A stretch of DNA of 64,000 nucleotides, taken from the NCBI GenBank assembly GCA_016934985.1, contig JAFGRU010000026.1, forward strand, positions 1 to 64,000. Direction: 5' to 3'. Positions 45,362 to 54,825 of this stretch are shown piece after piece (within the stretch, counting starts at the first letter, position 1; each line of letters begins with the position of its first letter). Origin of the DNA: Deltaproteobacteria bacterium (GTDB lineage Bacteria > Desulfobacterota > Desulfuromonadia > Desulfuromonadales > JAAYDE01). The position numbers and the translations under genes were made by a program. The notes beneath the pieces were generated by a model. The model did no database searches and was not told where the DNA came from. It worked only from the letters and a program-made list of their open reading frames with translations.

Positions 45362-46813
45362 ATGACAAGGCGTCTCTTCTGGCCCAAATCCTTTCTTTTC
45401 TTGGTGCTCATCGGTTTTACCGTGATCGCTCTGCCGTTAATCGTTGTTTTGGTCAGCGCCGAAATTTCCATGACCAGGTTGGCTATACAAGGAACCAAAG
45501 CCGTCAGTAATTCCGTGGCCGTCACCCAGGAAAGTGGCAGTTTGGTCGAAAAAGTCCTGACCTTTGAGAGGCTGGCACGCCAATACCAGGTCTTGAAGGA
45601 CCCGCAAATGCTGGAAAACATAACAGCAAAGCACCAAGAGCTTTTGCACACTCTGGAGGTTCTCAACAATCTGCTCGGCGACAGCGAGGGGAAGACCGCT
45701 TTGCAAGCCATTCAGGAAGGAGTGAACCGCATCCAGGAGGTTCTGAATAAGGGGCCCCAGGGAACAACCACCCTGGAAACAGCCCTGGCTGAATTTGCCC
45801 TTCTAAACCAGCTGGCCGGAAAAATCAACGCTGACAGCCAAGACCTCATCCTTCGTGAAATAGACACCATGCAAACGGCCTCGGAAAAAAAACAGCGCGA
45901 CCTCATTATTCAGGCGGTCATCTTTATTTTCCTGACTATTCTGTCGATGTTCATTTTTGCTCAGTTAATCCTGAGGCCGATCCGCGAAATGGACAAAGGT
46001 ATTCACCGACTTGGGGAGGGGGACTACACAACCCCGGTTTCAGTCAGCGGTCCCAGGGACCTCGAGGCCCTGGGGGGAAGACTGGACTGGTTAAGAGAGC
46101 GCTTGGGAGATGTCGAAAAGGAGAAAAGCAAATTCCTCGCTCATGTTTCCCATGAGCTCAAAACCCCCTTGGCCTCCATCCGGGAAGGAGCGGACCTGTT
46201 AAGCGACGAACTGGTCGGCCAGCTCAACGACCAGCAACGGGAAGTCACCAAAATATTATGCAAAAACAGCATTCAATTACAAAAACTCATTGAAAACTTA
46301 CTGGGCTTCAGCAAAGACCAGGTCAGACTGTCGCAAATGTTTTTTTCAAAAGTTCCTTTGACGGAAGCCGTGGATGAAATCCTCGAAGGTCAGCTTCCGG
46401 CCATCCTGAAAAAGGAAATCCACATAGAATCCAACCTGCAGGATATTGAACTGCTGGGAGATCAGGATAAAATCAGGATTATCGTTGACAATCTCATCTC
46501 TAACGCGGTCAAATATACACCATTTGGTGGTCGCATAGACCTGCGCGCCTTCGCCGCATCAAAAATGGGGGTTTTCGAAGTTGCGGATTCAGGGCCCGGA
46601 ATTCGGGAAGAAGAACGAGGAAAAATTTTTCAGCCATTCTACCAGGGAGAAGCCCCTCTGAACGGTACCATCAAGGGAACCGGCCTGGGTCTGTCCATTG
46701 CCAAAGAATATGTTTTAGAGCAAGGGGGGCGTATCATCGTAAAAAACAGCCGCTCAGGAGGAGCTTGTTTCCAGGTGGCTCTTCCTCTGGCAAGCGAGGG
46801 AAAAAACACATGA
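45362..46813 (+). CDS. glrK: sensor histidine kinase, GlrK (QseE)-like
   Basis: This 483-residue membrane histidine kinase has a signal-anchor helix at residues 10-32 and a mostly helical periplasmic sensor of about 150 residues (residues 33-180). A second membrane helix lies at 183-204, followed by a HAMP linker. HisKA follows with the phospho-accepting His264 in HVSHELKTPLASI. The ATPase domain has IIVDNLISNAVKYTP (N box), DSGPGI and GTGLGLSIAKE. The symbol rests on operon structure: as in enterobacteria it is followed by a QseG-like lipoprotein and a sigma-54-dependent regulator with a receiver domain. In E. coli this system senses envelope stress and controls glmY. The signal here is unknown. 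Confidence 0.85.
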   Translation: MTRRLFWPKSFLFLVLIGFTVIALPLIVVLVSAEISMTRLAIQGTKAVSNSVAVTQESGSLVEKVLTFERLARQYQVLKDPQMLENITAKHQELLHTLEVLNNLLGDSEGKTALQAIQEGVNRIQEVLNKGPQGTTTLETALAEFALLNQLAGKINADSQDLILREIDTMQTASEKKQRDLIIQAVIFIFLTILSMFIFAQLILRPIREMDKGIHRLGEGDYTTPVSVSGPRDLEALGGRLDWLRERLGDVEKEKSKFLAHVSHELKTPLASIREGADLLSDELVGQLNDQQREVTKILCKNSIQLQKLIENLLGFSKDQVRLSQMFFSKVPLTEAVDEILEGQLPAILKKEIHIESNLQDIELLGDQDKIRIIVDNLISNAVKYTPFGGRIDLRAFAASKMGVFEVADSGPGIREEERGKIFQPFYQGEAPLNGTIKGTGLGLSIAKEYVLEQGGRIIVKNSRSGGACFQVALPLASEGKNT

Positions 46814-47361
46814 AAATTATCAAGACCTTAAGGATTCCAGCCGTCTGCGTAGGGTTCCTGGTCGCATTGTCAGGGTGCCTGCCCGGATCCTATTACGGAG
46901 GGGAGAATCGTTTTGGCGACAAATGGGAGGCCGTAACAGAAAATAAGGCTCCAGCCGAGACTTTATTCTCCCGCTTTTATTATCTGAAACAGTTGTCGCA
47001 CGAAGATCGTAACGGGGAATATAATAAAGCTCTGGAAAAACTCGAGCAGAAACCCGATATTTTCTGGCATCTTGAAGCCCTTTACCTTGCCGTCCTGACC
47101 GGCCATCCGCAAAACGGAACCGCATTGATGTCAGCCCTAAAGGAAGAGATCGAAAAACCTAAGTTTGAAAATGATTATGAATTGAAGGGGGTAGTCGGCC
47201 TCCTTGAACTCCTGCTTAAACAAAAAAACGAGATTATTTTTACCCAAAAGTTGCTCGAAGAGGAAAAAGACAAATCCAGCCGCTTGGCACATCAATTGAA
47301 AGAACTTAAAAATATTGAAAAAATCATACATGAAAGAGAAACAAGCAAAGAAAATGAATGA
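46810..47361 (+). CDS. QseG/YfhG-like lipoprotein
   Basis: The 183-residue lipoprotein begins MKIIKTLRIPAVCVGFLVALSGC, so Cys23 is lipidated. The mature part is helical, with a TPR-like middle (DIFWHLEALYLAVLTGHPQNG) and a long C-terminal coiled coil ending in Lys/Glu repeats. The ATG overlaps the kinase stop as ATGA. Its position between kinase and regulator is exactly that of QseG (YfhG), the outer-membrane partner of GlrK in E. coli, and it is likely to work in signal sensing. Sequence similarity to QseG is weak, so the assignment is from context. Confidence 0.7.
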   Translation: MKIIKTLRIPAVCVGFLVALSGCLPGSYYGGENRFGDKWEAVTENKAPAETLFSRFYYLKQLSHEDRNGEYNKALEKLEQKPDIFWHLEALYLAVLTGHPQNGTALMSALKEEIEKPKFENDYELKGVVGLLELLLKQKNEIIFTQKLLEEEKDKSSRLAHQLKELKNIEKIIHERETSKENE

Positions 47362-48781
47362 CCGCAGTAATGTCAAAGAACCACGCCCCCGCATACTGTT
47401 GGTAGACGATGATACCGATCTGTTGAGCCTTCTCTCCATCCGTCTCAACGGTGCCGGCTATGAAGTCTGTGTCGCCGAAAGCGGGGAAGAAGCGATGGCT
47501 ATATTTTCACTTTTCCGGCCGCACCTGATCCTGACGGATTTACGCATGGAAGGCATGGACGGCCTCGCTCTGTTCGATACCATCCGGGAAATCAACTCCT
47601 CGGTGCCGGTGATCATTCTAACCGCTCACGGCTCCATCCCCGATGCCGTCGCAGCCACCAAGCGGGGAATTTTTTCTTTTCTAACCAAGCCTCTGAACAG
47701 CAAGGCCCTTTTGCGGGATATTGAAAAAGCCCTTGATTTCTGCGGCCTTCGAGGAGAAACAAAAGATGGCGAAGGCGAATGGCGCCGCGATGTCATTACC
47801 CGCTGTCCTCTGGTGGAAGACCTCCTGAGCAAGGCCTACCTGGCGGCCCAAAGCGGATCAAGCATTCTCCTGCGGGGGGAAAGCGGGACCGGGAAAGAGG
47901 TGTTCGCGCGGGCCATTCATCTGGCCAGCGTGCGCGCCAAACAACCTTTTGTGGCCGTTAACTGCGGCGCCATACCTGATTCGCTTCTGGAGTCTGAACT
48001 TTTCGGCCACGCCAAAGGCTCTTTCACCGGAGCTCTGCACAACTACCCCGGCTTGTTCAAATCGGCCCACGGTGGGACCCTGTTTTTGGATGAGATCGCC
48101 GACATGCCGACCCAACTCCAGGTCAAGTTGCTGCGCGTTCTTCAGGAGAAGCAGATCCGTCCTGTCGGGTCAACAGCACCTATTCATGTCGATGTCCGAA
48201 TCATTTCAGCGACCCATCGCAACATCGAAAAAGAGATTGAGGCCGGCAGTTTTCGGGAAGACCTCTATTACCGCTTGAATGTCGTTTCCCTGAATCTGCC
48301 CGGCCTGTCGCAACGGCGTGAGGATATTCCCTTGCTGGCCAATCACTTTCTCCAGGAACTGGACAAAAAAACCGGCAAGCATGTCACCAGCTTCTCCCCC
48401 GAAGCCATGGAAATTCTGCTTCATGCACCCTGGCCAGGAAACATTCGCCAACTGTTGAATGTCGTGGAGCAGGCCGTCGCCCTTTCAACAACACCTGTTA
48501 TCTCCGTTGACCTGGTAAATAACGCATTGGAGCAAAACTCAGAGAAAATCCCGACCTTTAGCGAAGCCCGGAAAAAATTTGAGCAGGAATACCTGGTGCG
48601 ACTTCTTAAAATCACCAATGGGAAGGTAACACACGCGGCCCGCCTGGCAGGACGCAACAGAACTGAATTCTACAAACTCTTGAACCGGCACCATATCGTT
48701 CCCAGCCTGTTCAAAAACCAGGAGGACGGGGCCGCCATTAAGGGTTCTGAATCTTTAAGAGAAGAAAGTGCCAACTTCTAG
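47354..48781 (+). CDS. glrR: sigma-54-dependent response regulator, GlrR (QseF)-like
   Basis: This is an NtrC-type activator with three domains. The receiver domain has Asp62 in LILTDLRMEG. The AAA+ sigma-54 activation domain has Walker A LLRGESGTGKE, the sigma-54 contact loop ELFGHAKGSFTGA (Ser replaces the usual Ala of GAFTGA), Walker B GGTLFLDEIADMP and PWPGNIRQLLNVV. The C-terminal Fis-type helix-turn-helix is ITNGKVTHAARLAGRNRTEFYKLL. The start ATG 47354-47356 gives the usual distance to the receiver; upstream in-frame ATGs lie inside the lipoprotein gene. It overlaps that gene by eight bases. Two TGTC-N10-GACA sites and a sigma-54 promoter lie just downstream, which is the known target pattern of E. 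coli GlrR. Confidence 0.88.
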   Translation: MNDRSNVKEPRPRILLVDDDTDLLSLLSIRLNGAGYEVCVAESGEEAMAIFSLFRPHLILTDLRMEGMDGLALFDTIREINSSVPVIILTAHGSIPDAVAATKRGIFSFLTKPLNSKALLRDIEKALDFCGLRGETKDGEGEWRRDVITRCPLVEDLLSKAYLAAQSGSSILLRGESGTGKEVFARAIHLASVRAKQPFVAVNCGAIPDSLLESELFGHAKGSFTGALHNYPGLFKSAHGGTLFLDEIADMPTQLQVKLLRVLQEKQIRPVGSTAPIHVDVRIISATHRNIEKEIEAGSFREDLYYRLNVVSLNLPGLSQRREDIPLLANHFLQELDKKTGKHVTSFSPEAMEILLHAPWPGNIRQLLNVVEQAVALSTTPVISVDLVNNALEQNSEKIPTFSEARKKFEQEYLVRLLKITNGKVTHAARLAGRNRTEFYKLLNRHHIVPSLFKNQEDGAAIKGSESLREESANF

Positions 48782-48844
48782 CCGACGTTTCAACTGCCAG
48801 GAAAATCTTCATGGGTTTCAGACAGTTGGAGAACATCAATGCTT

Positions 48845-48862
48845 TGTCTCGTTTTTGAGACA
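48845..48862. promoter_or_regulatory. GlrR-type enhancer site 1 (TGTC-N10-GACA)
   Basis: TGTCTCGTTTTTGAGACA is an inverted repeat with the spacing known for E. coli GlrR sites upstream of glmY. Its centre is 65 bases before that of site 2, near six helical turns. Confidence 0.7.
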
Positions 48863-48909
48863 TCATAATTGACTGGATATTTAAGGAAAAAGCTTAGCCT
48901 CTCCTGATG

Positions 48910-48927
48910 TGTCGTTTTTTTGAGACA
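48910..48927. promoter_or_regulatory. GlrR-type enhancer site 2 (TGTC-N10-GACA)
   Basis: TGTCGTTTTTTTGAGACA keeps both TGTC and GACA arms exactly. It lies about 112 bases upstream of the sigma-54 -24 box, a usual enhancer distance. Confidence 0.7.
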
Positions 48928-49020
48928 AAAAGGTCTGTTAATTAAGAAAATAATAGCTTTAGCGAGGTTCTTTATTTTTTTTCTTGAAATTTTATAAGTT
49001 TTTTATAAGCAACTAAAAAA

Positions 49021-49036
49021 AGGTACACTGTTTGCT
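49021..49036 (+). promoter_or_regulatory. sigma-54 (-24/-12) promoter
   Basis: AGGTACACTGTTTGCT carries the invariant GG (49022-49023) and GC (49034-49035) ten bases apart, with AC and TTGC also matching the TGGCAC-N5-TTGC consensus. Transcription should start near 49047. Confidence 0.75.
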
Positions 49037-49083
49037 GATACTGTTTATGTTAGACATGTCGGTTGCATAATCGTATTAAAAAC

Positions 49084-49113
49084 GGAAAATATCCTTTTAA
49101 AAAGGATATTTCC
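49084..49113 (+). other. hairpin in the 5' leader of the sigma-54 transcript
   Basis: GGAAAATATCCTTTT and AAAAGGATATTTCC form a 14-bp stem with one bulge and almost no loop. No T tract follows, so it is a leader structure (stability or processing), not a clear terminator. Confidence 0.55.
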
Positions 49114-49158
49114 AAAGTTTCTTACTCAACTTCGCTCATGATAGGTTAAGAAAACGAT

Positions 49159-49662
49159 ATGATCCGTGCTTTGATAATATGTGTACTTGGCGCATTTATG
49201 GCAATAGTTGTTTACGCAGGGCAAGTTGGTTATGGGAGGGATGTCCCGGAAGAGAGAATGGAGGCGCCCAAGGCGGTTCATGAAAGCCAGGTGAAAGGTT
49301 ATGAGTTTTCCTATCAACTGGTTAACACGGAAGGCCCTTTCGCTTTTTACCGGAATATCCCATATCAACTAACAGAGCAACTGCGACAAAACCAAGATGT
49401 TTTGGAAGGGACACCGAAACCGCAGTTGATACTTTTCATTACCGATGCACTCGGAAATGAAATTGTTGACGCCAAGGTTAAGTATAAAATCGTAGGCCCC
49501 CAAAAAGATATCCTGGAGGCAGGGGGGTTCCCGGTAAAAGGCGGTTATGCCGCAGGTATTTACTGCACGGACCCGGGAACTTACAAGATTGAAGCGGAAA
49601 TCGAACTGTCGGAATACAAAAAAACCCTGGTTGATCGATTCGCTTTTTACAACCAACCCTGA
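49159..49662 (+). CDS. secreted protein, putative target of the GlrR system
   Basis: The 167-residue exported protein has a signal peptide (MIRALIICVLGAFMAIVVYA). The mature part looks like an Ig-like or YtkA/FixH-type beta sandwich: LILFITDALGNEIVDAKVKY, then KIVGPQKDILEAGGFPVKGG and YAAGIYCTDPGTYKIEAEIE. This suggests a periplasmic protein with a single Cys. I do not recognise a named family. It lies about 110 bases downstream of the predicted sigma-54 start, so GlrR should activate it. A 72-residue membrane protein follows 37 bases on and is probably co-transcribed. Confidence 0.75.
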   Translation: MIRALIICVLGAFMAIVVYAGQVGYGRDVPEERMEAPKAVHESQVKGYEFSYQLVNTEGPFAFYRNIPYQLTEQLRQNQDVLEGTPKPQLILFITDALGNEIVDAKVKYKIVGPQKDILEAGGFPVKGGYAAGIYCTDPGTYKIEAEIELSEYKKTLVDRFAFYNQP

Positions 49663-49699
49663 CGTTTTAAACCACTAACAAAGACAATGGGGTAATGAA

Positions 49700-49918
49700 A
49701 TGAAAGGTTTTGGGAAAATTCTAATTCTCCTCAGTATCCTTTGCAGCATTCTTCTCGGGGTCCAGATTGTCGCCTATTTTGGAGCCAAACTCGGTTTTGC
49801 AATACTTTCTCTTCTTTTCATGGGCGGAATTGCTCTGAGCCTGGTTCTGTCGGGTACCAACAACGGCCAAGAAGACCTTTTTATGGAAGAATTTTTGGAA
49901 GATTTCCGCGAAAACTGA
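49700..49918 (+). CDS. small two-helix membrane protein
   Basis: The 72-residue product has two hydrophobic segments (ILILLSILCSILLGVQIVAYF and LGFAILSLLFMGGIALSLVL) and an acidic C-terminal tail (EDLFMEEFLEDFREN). It could be an inner-membrane accessory or stress mini-protein. No family is recognisable. It lies 37 bases behind the secreted protein gene on the same strand and may share its sigma-54 promoter. Nothing coding is seen in the 263 bases after it, up to 50181. Confidence 0.6.
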   Translation: MKGFGKILILLSILCSILLGVQIVAYFGAKLGFAILSLLFMGGIALSLVLSGTNNGQEDLFMEEFLEDFREN

Positions 49919-50181
49919 CATTCAACCCAATTTTTTCCTTTGTAATGTTTATGATGTTCTATTTCCGCTCAGGGTTATCAAAAAATCCTTCGGGAATGAT
50001 CTTAATATTTGATTTTTTATTCTCTCTTCCCCCACCTTGTGTTAAGCTCTCCACATATTGACGTCTGCCTGAGTATTAACCGCGGCTTAGTAATTCCAGG
50101 CGTTTAATAATCGTAATCACGTAAATTTCCGTAACCATACTTCTCCTTTTTGGATCATTGCCAAAGCAGGAGGTCTTTCTT

Positions 50182-50883
50182 ATGTCCATTAGACGAGTTG
50201 TTTTTTTCTTTTGCCTGTTTACTCTGCTTTCTATTCCCGCGCTAGCCGAAACCGGCTATGTTGCCGACGAACTGATCATCACCTTGCGTCAAGGTCCGGG
50301 GAATCAATATAAAGTTCTCCGCACCCTGAAAACCGGAACCCCCATGGAAATATTGGAAAAAGGGGATAACCATTTCCGTGTGCGCATACGCTCCGGTGAG
50401 GAAGGTTATGTTCTGAGACAGTACGTCTCTTCCCAAACCCCAAAACCCATCATTATTGCCAACCTGACAAAACAGGTGGCCAACCTGGAAAAAAAGATCC
50501 AAGAACTGGAAACAAACCGAAATGATTTAAAAAAGATGCATGTAGATCTTGAGCAAAGCAGTAAAACGAACGAGGAAAAGTTGAGTCTGCAGCTTGCCGA
50601 ACTTGAGGAAAAGTATCAACAGACAACCAGAAAACTCGAGGCTACCAGTAAAGACTATACCTCTCTTATGAGTAAATCCGAAAATCTCCTTAGCATCATT
50701 GCCGAGCGAGACCAACTGGCGACGGAAAATGAAAAACTTGCGGCCAGAGCTGAGGAACTGAAAATAGAAAATACCGATCTGCTTCGGACGGGAGTCATCA
50801 AGTGGTTCCTGGCCGGGGCGGGGGTACTCTTATTTGGCTGGATTCTGGGCAAGTTATCCAGAAAACGCCGAAGCAGTTTTTGA
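50182..50883 (+). CDS. TIGR04211-type SH3 domain protein (YgiM-like)
   Basis: This envelope protein has a signal peptide (MSIRRVVFFFCLFTLLSIPALA) and a bacterial SH3 domain at about residues 23-85 (YVADELIITLRQGPGNQYKV, EGYVLRQYVSS). A long coiled coil follows at 95-200, and the C-terminal membrane helix is WFLAGAGVLLFGWILG with a basic cytoplasmic tail. This architecture is that of YgiM/TIGR04211 proteins, thought to bind the cell wall; no enzymatic activity is known. ATG 50182 is supported by AGGAGGT; an ATG eight codons earlier overlaps this site. It is separate from the kinase genes that follow. Confidence 0.85.
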   Translation: MSIRRVVFFFCLFTLLSIPALAETGYVADELIITLRQGPGNQYKVLRTLKTGTPMEILEKGDNHFRVRIRSGEEGYVLRQYVSSQTPKPIIIANLTKQVANLEKKIQELETNRNDLKKMHVDLEQSSKTNEEKLSLQLAELEEKYQQTTRKLEATSKDYTSLMSKSENLLSIIAERDQLATENEKLAARAEELKIENTDLLRTGVIKWFLAGAGVLLFGWILGKLSRKRRSSF

Positions 50884-51053: not shown

Positions 51054-52880
51054 ATGGAGCCATATAAAAAAAGTCCACTTGCACGAAAAACCATCCCTTT
51101 GCTTTTGGTGGGGTTATTGGGCTTAATTATTACCATCGTGGTTTTCTTTGTTGTCCGAGAGAAAGAAGTCCAGGAAATCAGAAGCCATTTCCATTTTACC
51201 GCAAACAGTGTAAATACCGATATCAAGGATATTCTCGAAAGCGATATCGACACCCTGCAACTGATAGAAGCCTTGTTCCAAGGCTCGGAATTCGTCACGC
51301 GCGATGAATTCCAAAAGTTTGTGCAACCGGTCCTGGCGCGGCACCCGCATATCCTTCTCTTTGGCTGGCTTCCCTCTGTAAAACTCGATGATCGAAAAAC
51401 TTTCCACCGCAAATTAGGTGAGGAAGGAATTTCGTTGTTTGACGAGGGACGGGAAAACAGCCAGCTTCCCGAAAATGATGAAGCACGACAGGTTTTTTAT
51501 CCGGTTTATTACCTTGAAGGTCCGGGGAAGGATAAACTTGGCCTGGGAACCGATATGGCTGATCTTCCCGAGGTATACCAAGCCTTGGCAAAAGCAGAGA
51601 AAACGAGAACCCTGGGAGCCATAAAAATTGACTGGCCCTCCCAGCAGGATAATCAACAAATATATATGGTCTTTTTGCCTATTTTCGGAAAAAACTACCT
51701 GTTCGAAACCGACAGGCCAAAAAACGACACATCTTTAGGCGGCTTTATCTTCGGCCTTTTCCCGGTAGCCAATATATTGCAGGAAATTCGGGAAAAACAT
51801 GACTTGTCGGGCATCAAGATCGATTTTTTCGAGCCGCTCCAAGGCTCCAAAACATTGATCAACCGGCTCAAAACTCAACAGGGTGAAACGCTGAAAAACC
51901 TGGAGGTCTTTAAAATTGGCAACCGTGAACTCCTGATCCGTTCTCAGTCCCTGCCGGGGTATGTTCCCCAGCGGCTGTCATGGCGGCCAGGCGTCGCCCT
52001 GGCTGCAGGAATTTTTTTGGTCGGCCTGCTCCTTATCTATCTCGAACATACTTTTAGACGGACAGCTCAAATCGAACTGCTGGCAGAAAAACTCTCCGCC
52101 GAAGTCGTCGAACGCAAACGGGTTGCCGAAGCCAGGGAAAAGCTGGTGACCGAACTCGAAGCAAAAAATGCGGAACTGGAGAGGTTCACCTACACGGTCT
52201 CCCATGACCTGAAAAGCCCTCTCATCACCATTCGCGGGTTTACCGGCCTTCTGGCTGAAGATGCTCGCAAAGGAGACACCGAACGGGTTCAGGCAGACGC
52301 CACACAGATCAAATCCGCCACGGACAAGATGCAAAGACTTCTGGACGAGCTTCTGGAATTATCACGCATTGGCCGCTTGGTCAACCCACCCCGAGAAATA
52401 GACCTGAACGATCTGATTCAGGAAACTCTGACCATGCTGGGGGGCAGAATCTCCGAAAGCAAGGTGGAAATCTCCGTTTCGGACAACCTTCCCGTTATAT
52501 ATGGAGACCGCCCGCGGCTCCTGGAGGTTTTCCAGAACCTGATTGATAATGCTGTCAAGTTTATGGGGAAGCAACCGACTCCGCGTGTCGAAATCTACGC
52601 CGAGAAACATAATGAACACATAAAGTGTTTTGTGTGCGACAATGGGGCCGGAATTCCTGAACGTTACAAAAATAAAATCTTTGGTCTTTTTGAACGATTG
52701 GATCAAACCTGCGAAGGAACCGGCATCGGCCTGGCGCTGGTTAAGCGTATTGTGGAATTTCATGGTGGAAGGATATGGGTGGAGTCTGATGGTGAAGGCA
52801 AGGGCTCCACTTTTGTATTTACCCTGCCGGCGAAACAGGAAGGAATTTCAGATGAGCAATTTTTATGCAATGAAGGGTGA
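51054..52880 (+). CDS. CHASE domain sensor histidine kinase
   Basis: The 608-residue membrane kinase has two helices (residues 13-33 and 313-330) that enclose a periplasmic CHASE domain. Family-like blocks in that domain are EALFQGSEFVTRDEFQKFVQ, LLFGWLPSVKLDDRKTFHRK and ARQVFYPVYYLEG. A cytoplasmic coiled coil leads to HisKA with His384 (FTYTVSHDLKSPLITIRGFTG), a phytochrome-like type. The ATPase domain follows (VFQNLIDNAVKFM, DNGAGIP, GTGIGLALVKRIV). No Shine-Dalgarno is obvious. It overlaps the next receiver gene by 29 bases, and the two should be partners. Ligand unknown. Confidence 0.88.
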   Translation: MEPYKKSPLARKTIPLLLVGLLGLIITIVVFFVVREKEVQEIRSHFHFTANSVNTDIKDILESDIDTLQLIEALFQGSEFVTRDEFQKFVQPVLARHPHILLFGWLPSVKLDDRKTFHRKLGEEGISLFDEGRENSQLPENDEARQVFYPVYYLEGPGKDKLGLGTDMADLPEVYQALAKAEKTRTLGAIKIDWPSQQDNQQIYMVFLPIFGKNYLFETDRPKNDTSLGGFIFGLFPVANILQEIREKHDLSGIKIDFFEPLQGSKTLINRLKTQQGETLKNLEVFKIGNRELLIRSQSLPGYVPQRLSWRPGVALAAGIFLVGLLLIYLEHTFRRTAQIELLAEKLSAEVVERKRVAEAREKLVTELEAKNAELERFTYTVSHDLKSPLITIRGFTGLLAEDARKGDTERVQADATQIKSATDKMQRLLDELLELSRIGRLVNPPREIDLNDLIQETLTMLGGRISESKVEISVSDNLPVIYGDRPRLLEVFQNLIDNAVKFMGKQPTPRVEIYAEKHNEHIKCFVCDNGAGIPERYKNKIFGLFERLDQTCEGTGIGLALVKRIVEFHGGRIWVESDGEGKGSTFVFTLPAKQEGISDEQFLCNEG

Positions 52881-53313
52881 ACCACTTTGTTTATTATTGG
52901 TAGAGGACAATCCCGCACATGCTGAGTTAGTTATTCGCAGCTTTGAAAACCAGCGAGTAGCAAATAAAATAAACCATGTCCAGGACGGCGAGGAAGCCTT
53001 GGACTATCTCTTCAGAAGAGGGAAATATCAGGATCCGGAAAAATCACCCCGGCCCAATGTCATCTTGCTGGATTTGCGGCTTCCTAAAATCGACGGTCTG
53101 GAAGTTCTTCGCGAAATCAAAAACACCGAGGGGTTGAAGCGTATCCCCGTCGTTATCCTGACGACTTCCCAAGCCGAAATCGACGCATCGCGGGCCTATG
53201 ATTACCACGCCAACAGCTACCTGGTCAAACCCCTGGATTTTGAACTCTTCACTAAACTGATGGAGGAATTGGGCTTTTACTGGCTGGGATGGAACTTCAA
53301 CCCCTGGTCATGA
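52852..53313 (+). CDS. single-domain response regulator, Rcp1-like
   Basis: The 153-residue stand-alone receiver has LLLVEDNPAHAELVIRSF, phospho-acceptor Asp74 in VILLDLRLPKIDG, and IPVVILTTSQAEID with the conserved Thr and the later Lys of YLVKPLD. The RRGKYQDP insertion is typical of Rcp1-type partners of phytochrome-like kinases. There is no output domain, so it likely passes phosphate on. ATG 52852-52854 is preceded by AGGAAGGA. It overlaps the upstream kinase by 29 bases and is followed nine bases later by the hybrid receiver kinase. Confidence 0.9.
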   Translation: MSNFYAMKGEPLCLLLVEDNPAHAELVIRSFENQRVANKINHVQDGEEALDYLFRRGKYQDPEKSPRPNVILLDLRLPKIDGLEVLREIKNTEGLKRIPVVILTTSQAEIDASRAYDYHANSYLVKPLDFELFTKLMEELGFYWLGWNFNPWS

Positions 53314-53322
53314 AATACAATT

Positions 53323-54825
53323 ATGCCTGAAACCGCCCTCAAAATTTTACTGGTCGAAGATGAACAAGCTCATGTCGAACTGATTAAGAGAGCATTTTCA
53401 TCCCGTTCGGGAGAGGTTGTATTCCATATTGCCCACACCCTCAAAGATGCCTCGGCCCTGCTGAAAAAGCAGGATTATGATCTGGTACTGCTCGACTTCC
53501 TTCTCCCCGACGGCAAGGGGATAGAGCTTCTCCCCGCGAACAAGGAGGAAGCGGCATGCCCCTTCATGCTGATGACCAGCCACGGTGATGAGAAACTTGC
53601 GGTCGAAGCCCTTAAAGCAGGCGCCCTCGATTACGTGGTCAAATCGGCAGAAAACCTGGGTGCCATGCCGATTCTTGTCCAACGTGCCCTGCGCGAGTGG
53701 AACCTCATCCAAGAACGCCGCAAGGCTGAGGAAGCGCTGCGACTCAGCGAAGAAAAGTTTCGTACCATTGCCGACTACAGCATGGACCTTGGGATCTGGC
53801 TGGGAATTTATGGCGAGCTTCTCTGGGCCAACCGCTCCGTCGAACGCATGACGGGTTATACCTTTGAGGAATGCCTGAAAAAGCAGGACCATATCTTTGC
53901 TCTGATCCATGAAGATGACCGGGAGGAAATTCATAAGCTTTTCAGCAAGGCGGTAGCGGAAAAAACTTCAGGCACCAATGTACCTTTCCGATTAAAGCGC
54001 AAAGACGGCTTCATCCTCTGGGTTTCCATTTCCTGGCAACCAATTTTCAGCAGCAGCAAAGAATTTCTTGGCATCAGGGCCAGCATCCGGGACATCCATA
54101 AACTCAAGAGTACCCTTGAAAAACTTGAAGACGCCAATCGTGAACTCGATGCTTTCGTCTATACGGTTTCTCACGATTTACGTACGCCTCTGACACCGAT
54201 AATAGGCTATGCCCAGTTATTGCGAAAACAGTACAGCGATAAGCTGGATGACAAGGCCGGCCAATTTCTTGCGGCCATTGAGCAGCAGGGAGAAAACATG
54301 CTTGATCTCCTTGAAGACCTCTTGCGTCTGGCACGAGCCGGTTTTCTGGAGCGCCCCTCAAAACCCATCAATGTCGAAACCGTCGTCCGTGAAGTAATCG
54401 CCGCCCTCAACGGAAAACTTATGGACAACCAGATCGAAATCCAGGGAGGTTCCCTGCCTACCGTTCATCTCCCCAAAACCCTCCTTAACCAGATATTTGA
54501 AAACCTGCTTAAAAACGCCCTGACCTATGCCGGGCAAACTGGGCAACCCATCGAAATCGGCGGAGACAGAAAAGAAGGGAAAGCCCGTTACTTTGTCCGT
54601 GATCATGGACCGGGCATCCCCGACAACGAAAAAACCAAGATTTTCGAGGTTTTTTACCGTGGCGCTTGCGAGGAACAAACCCAGGGAACAGGAATCGGCC
54701 TCGCCACGGTACGCAAAATCGCTCGTCAGTACGGAGGCACAGCCTGGGTGGAGAACACCCCGGGAGGAGGAGCCACCTTCTGGTTTTCCCTTGAGGACAT
54801 GCCGGAGCCTAACAGTTTAGCCTGA
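53323..54825 (+). CDS. receiver-PAS-histidine kinase
   Basis: The 500-residue cytoplasmic protein starts with a receiver domain (Asp58 in LVLLDFLLPDGKG) and then has a PAS domain at about residues 140-260 (FRTIADYSMDLGIWLGIYGE ... FRLKRKDGFILWVSISWQP). HisKA follows with His284 (YTVSHDLRTPLTPIIGYAQL) and then the ATPase domain with GTGIGLATVRKIA. An N-terminal receiver with a kinase output suggests that it takes phosphate from the preceding CHASE kinase or its receiver, forming a relay. No DNA-binding output is encoded in the cluster. Confidence 0.88.
   Translation: MPETALKILLVEDEQAHVELIKRAFSSRSGEVVFHIAHTLKDASALLKKQDYDLVLLDFLLPDGKGIELLPANKEEAACPFMLMTSHGDEKLAVEALKAGALDYVVKSAENLGAMPILVQRALREWNLIQERRKAEEALRLSEEKFRTIADYSMDLGIWLGIYGELLWANRSVERMTGYTFEECLKKQDHIFALIHEDDREEIHKLFSKAVAEKTSGTNVPFRLKRKDGFILWVSISWQPIFSSSKEFLGIRASIRDIHKLKSTLEKLEDANRELDAFVYTVSHDLRTPLTPIIGYAQLLRKQYSDKLDDKAGQFLAAIEQQGENMLDLLEDLLRLARAGFLERPSKPINVETVVREVIAALNGKLMDNQIEIQGGSLPTVHLPKTLLNQIFENLLKNALTYAGQTGQPIEIGGDRKEGKARYFVRDHGPGIPDNEKTKIFEVFYRGACEEQTQGTGIGLATVRKIARQYGGTAWVENTPGGGATFWFSLEDMPEPNSLA

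Follow-up and report, generated by a model that had tools for sequence, protein, structure and literature searches.

The glrKR locus of a Desulfuromonadales genome carries two palindromes that are putative binding sites for GlrR, found within the window, the 64-kb stretch of DNA analysed here. Phosphorylated GlrR, together with sigma-54 RNA polymerase, would use these sites to activate an operon of small envelope proteins. The binding code would be shared with Escherichia coli, and the output would have been exchanged. The probability of this reading is put at about 85%. The paired sites are conserved among relatives and follow GlrR orthologues, which keep a conserved recognition helix.

The regulator operon is composed of glrK, a lipoprotein gene, and glrR, in that order, on the + strand. 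GlrK (45,362..46,813) is a membrane sensor histidine kinase with HAMP, HisKA, and HATPase domains (Pfam) and shares 31% identity with E. coli GlrK across its length. The second open reading frame (46,810..47,361) has a lipobox (...LSGC) and occupies the QseG position. Homologues of this lipoprotein are present in relatives. BLASTP detects no similarity to E. coli QseG, although a short, fast-evolving lipoprotein could escape detection. It is taken as equivalent to QseG by position and lipobox only. The gene order given in the first-pass annotation is correct, but its label "QseG-like" is not backed by detectable similarity.

The third gene, glrR (47,354..48,781), encodes an NtrC-family response regulator. 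Its start codon is uncertain, and the open reading frame opens at 47,315. The protein has a receiver domain, a sigma-54 activation domain (both Pfam), and a C-terminal Fis-type helix-turn-helix that contains GKVTHAARLAGRNRTEFYKLLNRH and is recognised by alignment to E. coli GlrR. NF011695 (GlrR) is its best NCBIfam family by far, with 623 bits over nearly the full profile against an equivalog cutoff of 763. Identity to E. coli GlrR is 57%, and the recognition helices are nearly identical, with VTHAARLAGRNRTEFYKLLNRH in the window and VTHAARMAGRNRTEFYKLLSRH in E. coli. The helix RNRT[ED]FY[KR]LL (RNRTEFYKLL) is kept in GlrR orthologues, whereas most non-orthologues differ, e.g., IERSHLHRKIK. 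Identity and recognition helix together assign the window regulator as a GlrR orthologue.

Both exact TGTC-N10-GACA palindromes that had been reported behind glrR are present. Site 1, TGTCTCgtttttGAGACA, spans 48,845-48,862 and matches 12/12 positions of the extended motif TGTCKC-N6-GMGACA. Site 2, TGTCGTttttttGAGACA, spans 48,910-48,927 and matches 11/12. Neither is assigned a strand. The sites are 65 bp apart and are the only exact TGTC-N10-GACA copies that a pattern search finds in the window. The claimed sigma-54 -24/-12 element, AGGTACACTGTTTGCT, is also present on the + strand at 49,021-49,036 (GG-N10-GC at 49,022-49,035). It begins 102 bp past the centre of site 2, compared with mostly 72-96 bp in relatives, and its -24 part opens with AGG, not TGG. 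Transcription is predicted to start near 49,047. The sigma-54 gene rpoN is present in the genome, and the + strand ahead of the secreted-protein gene shows no sigma-70 promoter-like site.

Counts alone say little about these elements. The bare TGTC-N10-GACA motif occurs 36 times genome-wide (3.58 Mb) versus 34 times for the reversed control, and the -24/-12 consensus with two mismatches occurs at a chance-level count in the window. The sites are significant because of their pairing, position, and conservation. A degenerate third copy had also been proposed at 48,807-48,824. This copy was rejected as noise, as it matches 7/12 motif positions and a random neighbour does equally well. The best-pair analysis finds no third site at the corresponding place in relatives.

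The exact extended motif occurs at one other place in the window genome, a draft of 136 contigs that is 90% complete with 2.3% contamination. This copy, TGTCTC-N6-GAGACA (G000:C121:11507-11524; L019:4508), lies inside the stem of an intrinsic terminator, AGGCGCACTTGTCTCATTATTGAGACAAGTGCGCCTTT, and has no nearby -24/-12 element. It was rejected as a GlrR target and is a chance match to the motif. A wider GlrR regulon was rejected as well. Within the genome itself, copies of the bare motif stay at background, and in ten relatives exact extended sites elsewhere are about as frequent as controls.

GlrR orthologues (58-76% identical) are found in 30 of 277 genomes of the class, the window genome included. 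Their loci define the consensus TGTCKC-N6-GMGACA, which is longer than the earlier reading and occurs as two palindromes downstream of glrR. The first lies 0-110 nt and the second 95-265 nt past the glrR stop. With the window locus left out, 25/29 class loci have paired sites (score at least 20/24 within 330 nt after the glrR stop), and 60 scrambled palindromes average 0.08. These loci also served to refine the motif; the independent counts are only those from E. coli and the contigs. In most class loci, a -24/-12 element follows site 2 at a consistent distance, with GG-N10-GC mostly 72-102 bp past the centre of the site. G001 and G002, the closest genomes that have the locus, both keep the 65-bp spacing; a recognisable -24/-12 element was not found beside the pair in G002. 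The pair is missing in 4/29 loci. In G109 (L052) and G112 (L056), the target protein gene is gone, and the pair is absent or degraded. The first-pass annotation had staked its proposal on conservation of the motif pairs in Desulfuromonadia relatives, and conserved they are.

Enteric GlrR has been assigned the consensus TGTN12ACA (PMC6075780) or TGTCN10GACA (PMC8745638). The claimed likeness to the E. coli GlrR sites at glmY extends over the longer motif. The sites upstream of glmY in E. coli K-12 include TGTCGCTTTCTGGCGACA and TGTCTCTTTTTAGCGACA, each 12/12 and 63 bp apart. A scan of genome contigs yielded 80 loci, with 45 GlrR orthologues from Gammaproteobacteria, Betaproteobacteria, Desulfobacterota, and Tectomicrobia. 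A pair is found within the tested flanks of 32 of the 45 (scrambled mean 0.25), and several of the 13 pairless orthologues sit on short contigs. Exact sites in the orthologue contigs number 16, against a scrambled mean of 0.1. No pair is found at any of 32 non-orthologous sigma-54 regulators. The pair follows GlrR orthology across phyla, as had been proposed for the binding code, and a -24/-12 element also lies beside many loci outside the class. A family survey noted GlrK/GlrR in beta- and deltaproteobacteria and did not state the controlled target there (PMC8895600). No paper on GlrR targets outside the enterics was found in the open-licence literature.

The window promoter faces genes for a secreted protein and a 72-residue membrane protein, both as the first-pass annotation described. 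The secreted protein (49,159..49,662, +) was delimited by alignment with relatives and has a signal sequence, a mature N-terminus of GQVGYG, and a C-terminal beta-sandwich. In the class, the promoter faces a family of exported proteins. By alignment, members have a conserved signal sequence and a mature GQxG start, and the C-terminal beta-sandwich is either present or absent. Several f17 family genomes retain only a 63-68-residue version. As modelled by AlphaFold2 (pLDDT 76), the window protein matches the periplasmic proteins P19/FetP/FtrA over residues 35-167, with a VIA Z of 14.2 for FetP (115 aligned, rmsd 2.4) and a Foldseek E of 3.7e-4. Sequence identity is ~16%. A Pfam search with the protein gives no match to the P19/FetP family, and the GQxG family alignment has no invariant His, Met, or Cys. 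The model predicts a P19/FetP-like beta-sandwich fold.

The 72-residue protein (49,700..49,918, +) has no family match, and its homologues are restricted to G001 and G002. It is confined to this family, whereas the more widely conserved second gene is the one that comes next. This gene (50,182..50,883, +) encodes an SH3 domain and membrane anchor protein, TIGR04211 (144.6 bits, cutoff 65). It is probably the last gene of the target operon, since it lies downstream in most class loci and, in several f17 genomes, its start and the stop of the GQxG gene overlap by 4 nt. In the window, the gap of about 260 nt before it contains no + strand terminator-like site. A second cluster, of sensor kinases and response regulators, lies directly after the SH3-anchor gene at 51,054-54,825, and similar kinase genes are downstream in some relatives, G001 among them.

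Relatives of the secreted beta-sandwich protein also occur in genomes without a GlrR orthologue (L175, L176, L179, L181, L184, L191, L192). Several of these genes sit near another response-regulator-like gene. Such Ig-domain homologues were rejected as GlrR targets, with a -24/-12 element seen in one only.

Genus g19 of the Desulfuromonadales (G044-G047) keeps both sites and the promoter at normal spacing in 4/4 genomes, and the protein gene is absent. In the GlrR tree, the four genomes are a clade (100/98) surrounded by genomes with GQxG proteins. In place of the protein, the locus has the block GTTGCAyTTCCGyCyGrCGGyyTCTGCCCTACCGyyrGGCGGTTTTTTT, which ends 68-127 nt past the inferred start. 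The block is composed of a conserved GTTGCAyTTCCG and an 11-bp stem with the loop ..CTGCCCTA, followed by a T-run. It (GTTGCAyTTCCG...CTGCCCTACCG) is far more conserved than its flanks, and the loop is invariant. One copy is found per genome, at the GlrR locus only, and in no other genome of the class. The block is seen after the glrR stop at L061:5763-5805 and also in L065, L043, and L075; the pattern loci are L159-L162. It is a candidate for a short terminated RNA of 70-130 nt driven by GlrR, with the layout TTCCG...CTGCCCTA...terminator.

Alternatively, the g19 promoter might have outlived the lost protein gene as a relic, with the hairpin serving as the terminator of the glr operon and no small RNA made. 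An intrinsic terminator is expected somewhere behind glrR, and the element is carried by four genomes only. However, both sites and the -24/-12 element persist at normal spacing in all four, conservation of the block, invariant loop included, reaches well beyond that of the flanking sequence, and the terminator is downstream of the promoter. The relic explanation is given somewhat less than an even chance. A small RNA could also be the true product in the window, where a GlmY-like RNA would be made from the predicted 112-nt 5' leader (49,047..49,158, +) and the protein genes would only be read through. E. coli, and apparently g19 too, makes an RNA from the equivalent promoter, and the leader is more stably folded than shuffled sequences (z -2.7), with a strong hairpin at 49,085-49,113. 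This hairpin is perfect and is terminator-like with a T-run on the opposite strand, but no T-run follows it on the + strand. Rfam gives no match at 48,700-50,200 with E up to 1, and the same tool recovers GlmY in enteric loci; a GlmY-like RNA was rejected for the window on this ground. In G001, the protein start codon is only about 20 nt from the promoter, which leaves no room for a leader, and what relatives have in common is the protein, not the leader. An RNA product in the window is thus highly improbable.

Hardly more probable is that another regulator uses the palindromes, or that they simply reflect how the region is laid out, and that their position beside glrR is incidental. TGT...ACA palindromes are bound by many regulators, and the bare motif is at background genome-wide. 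The pair nevertheless tracks GlrR orthology, both where it follows glrR and where it precedes glrK, and is lacking at the 32 non-orthologous regulators. The known GlrR enhancers of E. coli also have this motif (PMC6075780, PMC8745638).

Under the preferred reading, in which GlrR activates the envelope operon, GlrK would phosphorylate GlrR, and phosphorylated GlrR would bind both palindromes as an upstream enhancer. It would then contact sigma-54 RNA polymerase at 49,021-49,036 via DNA looping. The promoter would drive co-transcription of the genes for the secreted GQxG protein, the 72-residue membrane protein, and probably the SH3-anchor protein. GlrR binding, sigma-54 dependence, the start site, and the single transcript are predictions from sequence. 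More speculatively, the exported protein may be an envelope-stress effector or may feed back on GlrK, like ZraP or CpxP.

Outputs of the GlrR pair differ between lineages. The pair precedes glrK in Colwellia, Thalassotalea, Psychrosphaera, Thiotrichales, and Sedimenticola. There it points towards a divergently oriented -24/-12 element (none was recognised in one Colwellia, L089) and a gene whose small exported product usually carries EF-hand motifs. In Chromatiales and Neptuniibacter, an EF-hand gene precedes glrK and has the same orientation. The gene comes after glrR in Wenzhouxiangella, Salinisphaera, the Thiobacillaceae genome L101, and L113. The output is a glycine-zipper protein in Rhodocyclaceae and an acyltransferase-like gene in Motiliproteus. 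L103 (same contig as G084:C231) and G080 are Desulfuromonadales genomes with a gamma-type glrKR and an EF-hand gene oriented divergently. Horizontal transfer is suggested by their GlrR, which falls with those of Sedimenticola and further gammas.

GlmY is found by Rfam in 2 of 3 enteric-like loci examined, where GlrR is 77-83% identical to that of E. coli. The survey sampled genomes of the order that holds both Colwellia and the enterics, and no Rfam GlmY was found in its more distant loci. GlmY was rejected for the non-enteric loci, as none reaches Rfam gathering scores. In several loci with a 59-62% identical GlrR, the EF-hand gene lies directly upstream of glrK, the slot of glmY in E. coli. 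A GlrR tree of 76 rows places E. coli with Oceanospirillaceae rows bearing EF-hand or acyltransferase genes; local support for this placement is weak (88/34).

In the sampled loci, the usual output is a small exported protein, and GlmY is confined to enterics. As such proteins are widespread, the small RNA is more likely the derived state. GlmY is probably a derived output, a direction that comes from taxon sampling rather than formal reconstruction. The first-pass annotation had the output change from a small RNA to envelope proteins. The conserved code and the changed output stand, with a secreted protein here and not glmY, but the direction is probably the reverse. The ancestral job of GlrKR may have been to induce a small exported envelope protein. 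GlmY would then have taken the EF-hand slot, and g19 would have independently swapped the GQxG gene for an RNA, giving two protein-to-RNA swaps under one switch. This scenario is tentative and is judged a little more likely to be wrong than right.

Other structured regions are seen near GlrR loci. A long hairpin region with terminator-like ends lies between the EF-hand gene and glrK in L092, L097, L107, and L110. This region behind the EF-hand gene, the enteric glmY slot, could harbour an RNA. In Rhodocyclaceae, a conserved intergenic block (ATGCCTCT/CCTTCGGGGATCG.TCCTGAGCCAA.CGATCGC) is located at about 3530 in L082, 5550 in L083, and 2760 in L086. It sits between the GlrR promoter region and the gene of the MERLMHETRET membrane protein. 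Rfam gives no match for the block in L083 and L086, and a structured RNA is possible. Known riboswitches near GlrR loci include tandem c-di-GMP-I (L112:7293-7585), c-di-GMP-I-GGC (L081:6866-6955), and cobalamin (L089:6234-6404).

GlrR, also known as QseF, has been described as enterobacterial, and its best-known job is the production of GlmY, which feeds the control of cell-wall precursors (PMC6075780, PMC7073468). The exact GlrR code beside orthologues in several phyla, which faces an output in every case and mostly small exported proteins, makes a role before GlmY testable. The loci form a natural series of one regulator and one site pair with many exchanged targets, and g19 is a candidate second case of an RNA replacing a protein under the same promoter. 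This suggests that GlmY is the exception rather than the rule among GlrR outputs.

Several known systems resemble the window locus. The window protein shares a predicted beta-sandwich with P19/FetP/FtrA but lacks the Pfam match of that family, and no His, Met, or Cys is invariant among its relatives. ZraSR-zraP and CpxAR-cpxP are two-component envelope-stress systems with an adjacent small periplasmic protein as target, and zraP is sigma-54 dependent. The layout with an adjacent small exported target is similar, whereas the regulators belong to different orthologue groups and the periplasmic proteins are unrelated. By analogy, the exported protein might serve as an envelope-stress effector or in feedback. 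The GlrR-linked EF-hand genes of Gammaproteobacteria found here are alike in their paired sites, the -24/-12 element beside glrKR, and the small exported product. Their protein family is unrelated to that of the window, and in many species the gene is transcribed divergently from glrK or precedes it.

The closest system is GlrR (QseF)-glmY of Enterobacteriaceae. The two are alike in regulator family, recognition helix, the extended palindrome occurring twice at 63-65 bp, and the downstream -24/-12 element, and in both the sites adjoin the glrK-lipoprotein-glrR operon. The sites follow glrR in the window but precede glrK in E. coli, and they number two in the window versus three in E. coli. The overlapping sigma-70 promoter of E. 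coli glmY is not seen in the window. The output in E. coli is a small RNA, whereas in the window it is a secreted-protein operon.
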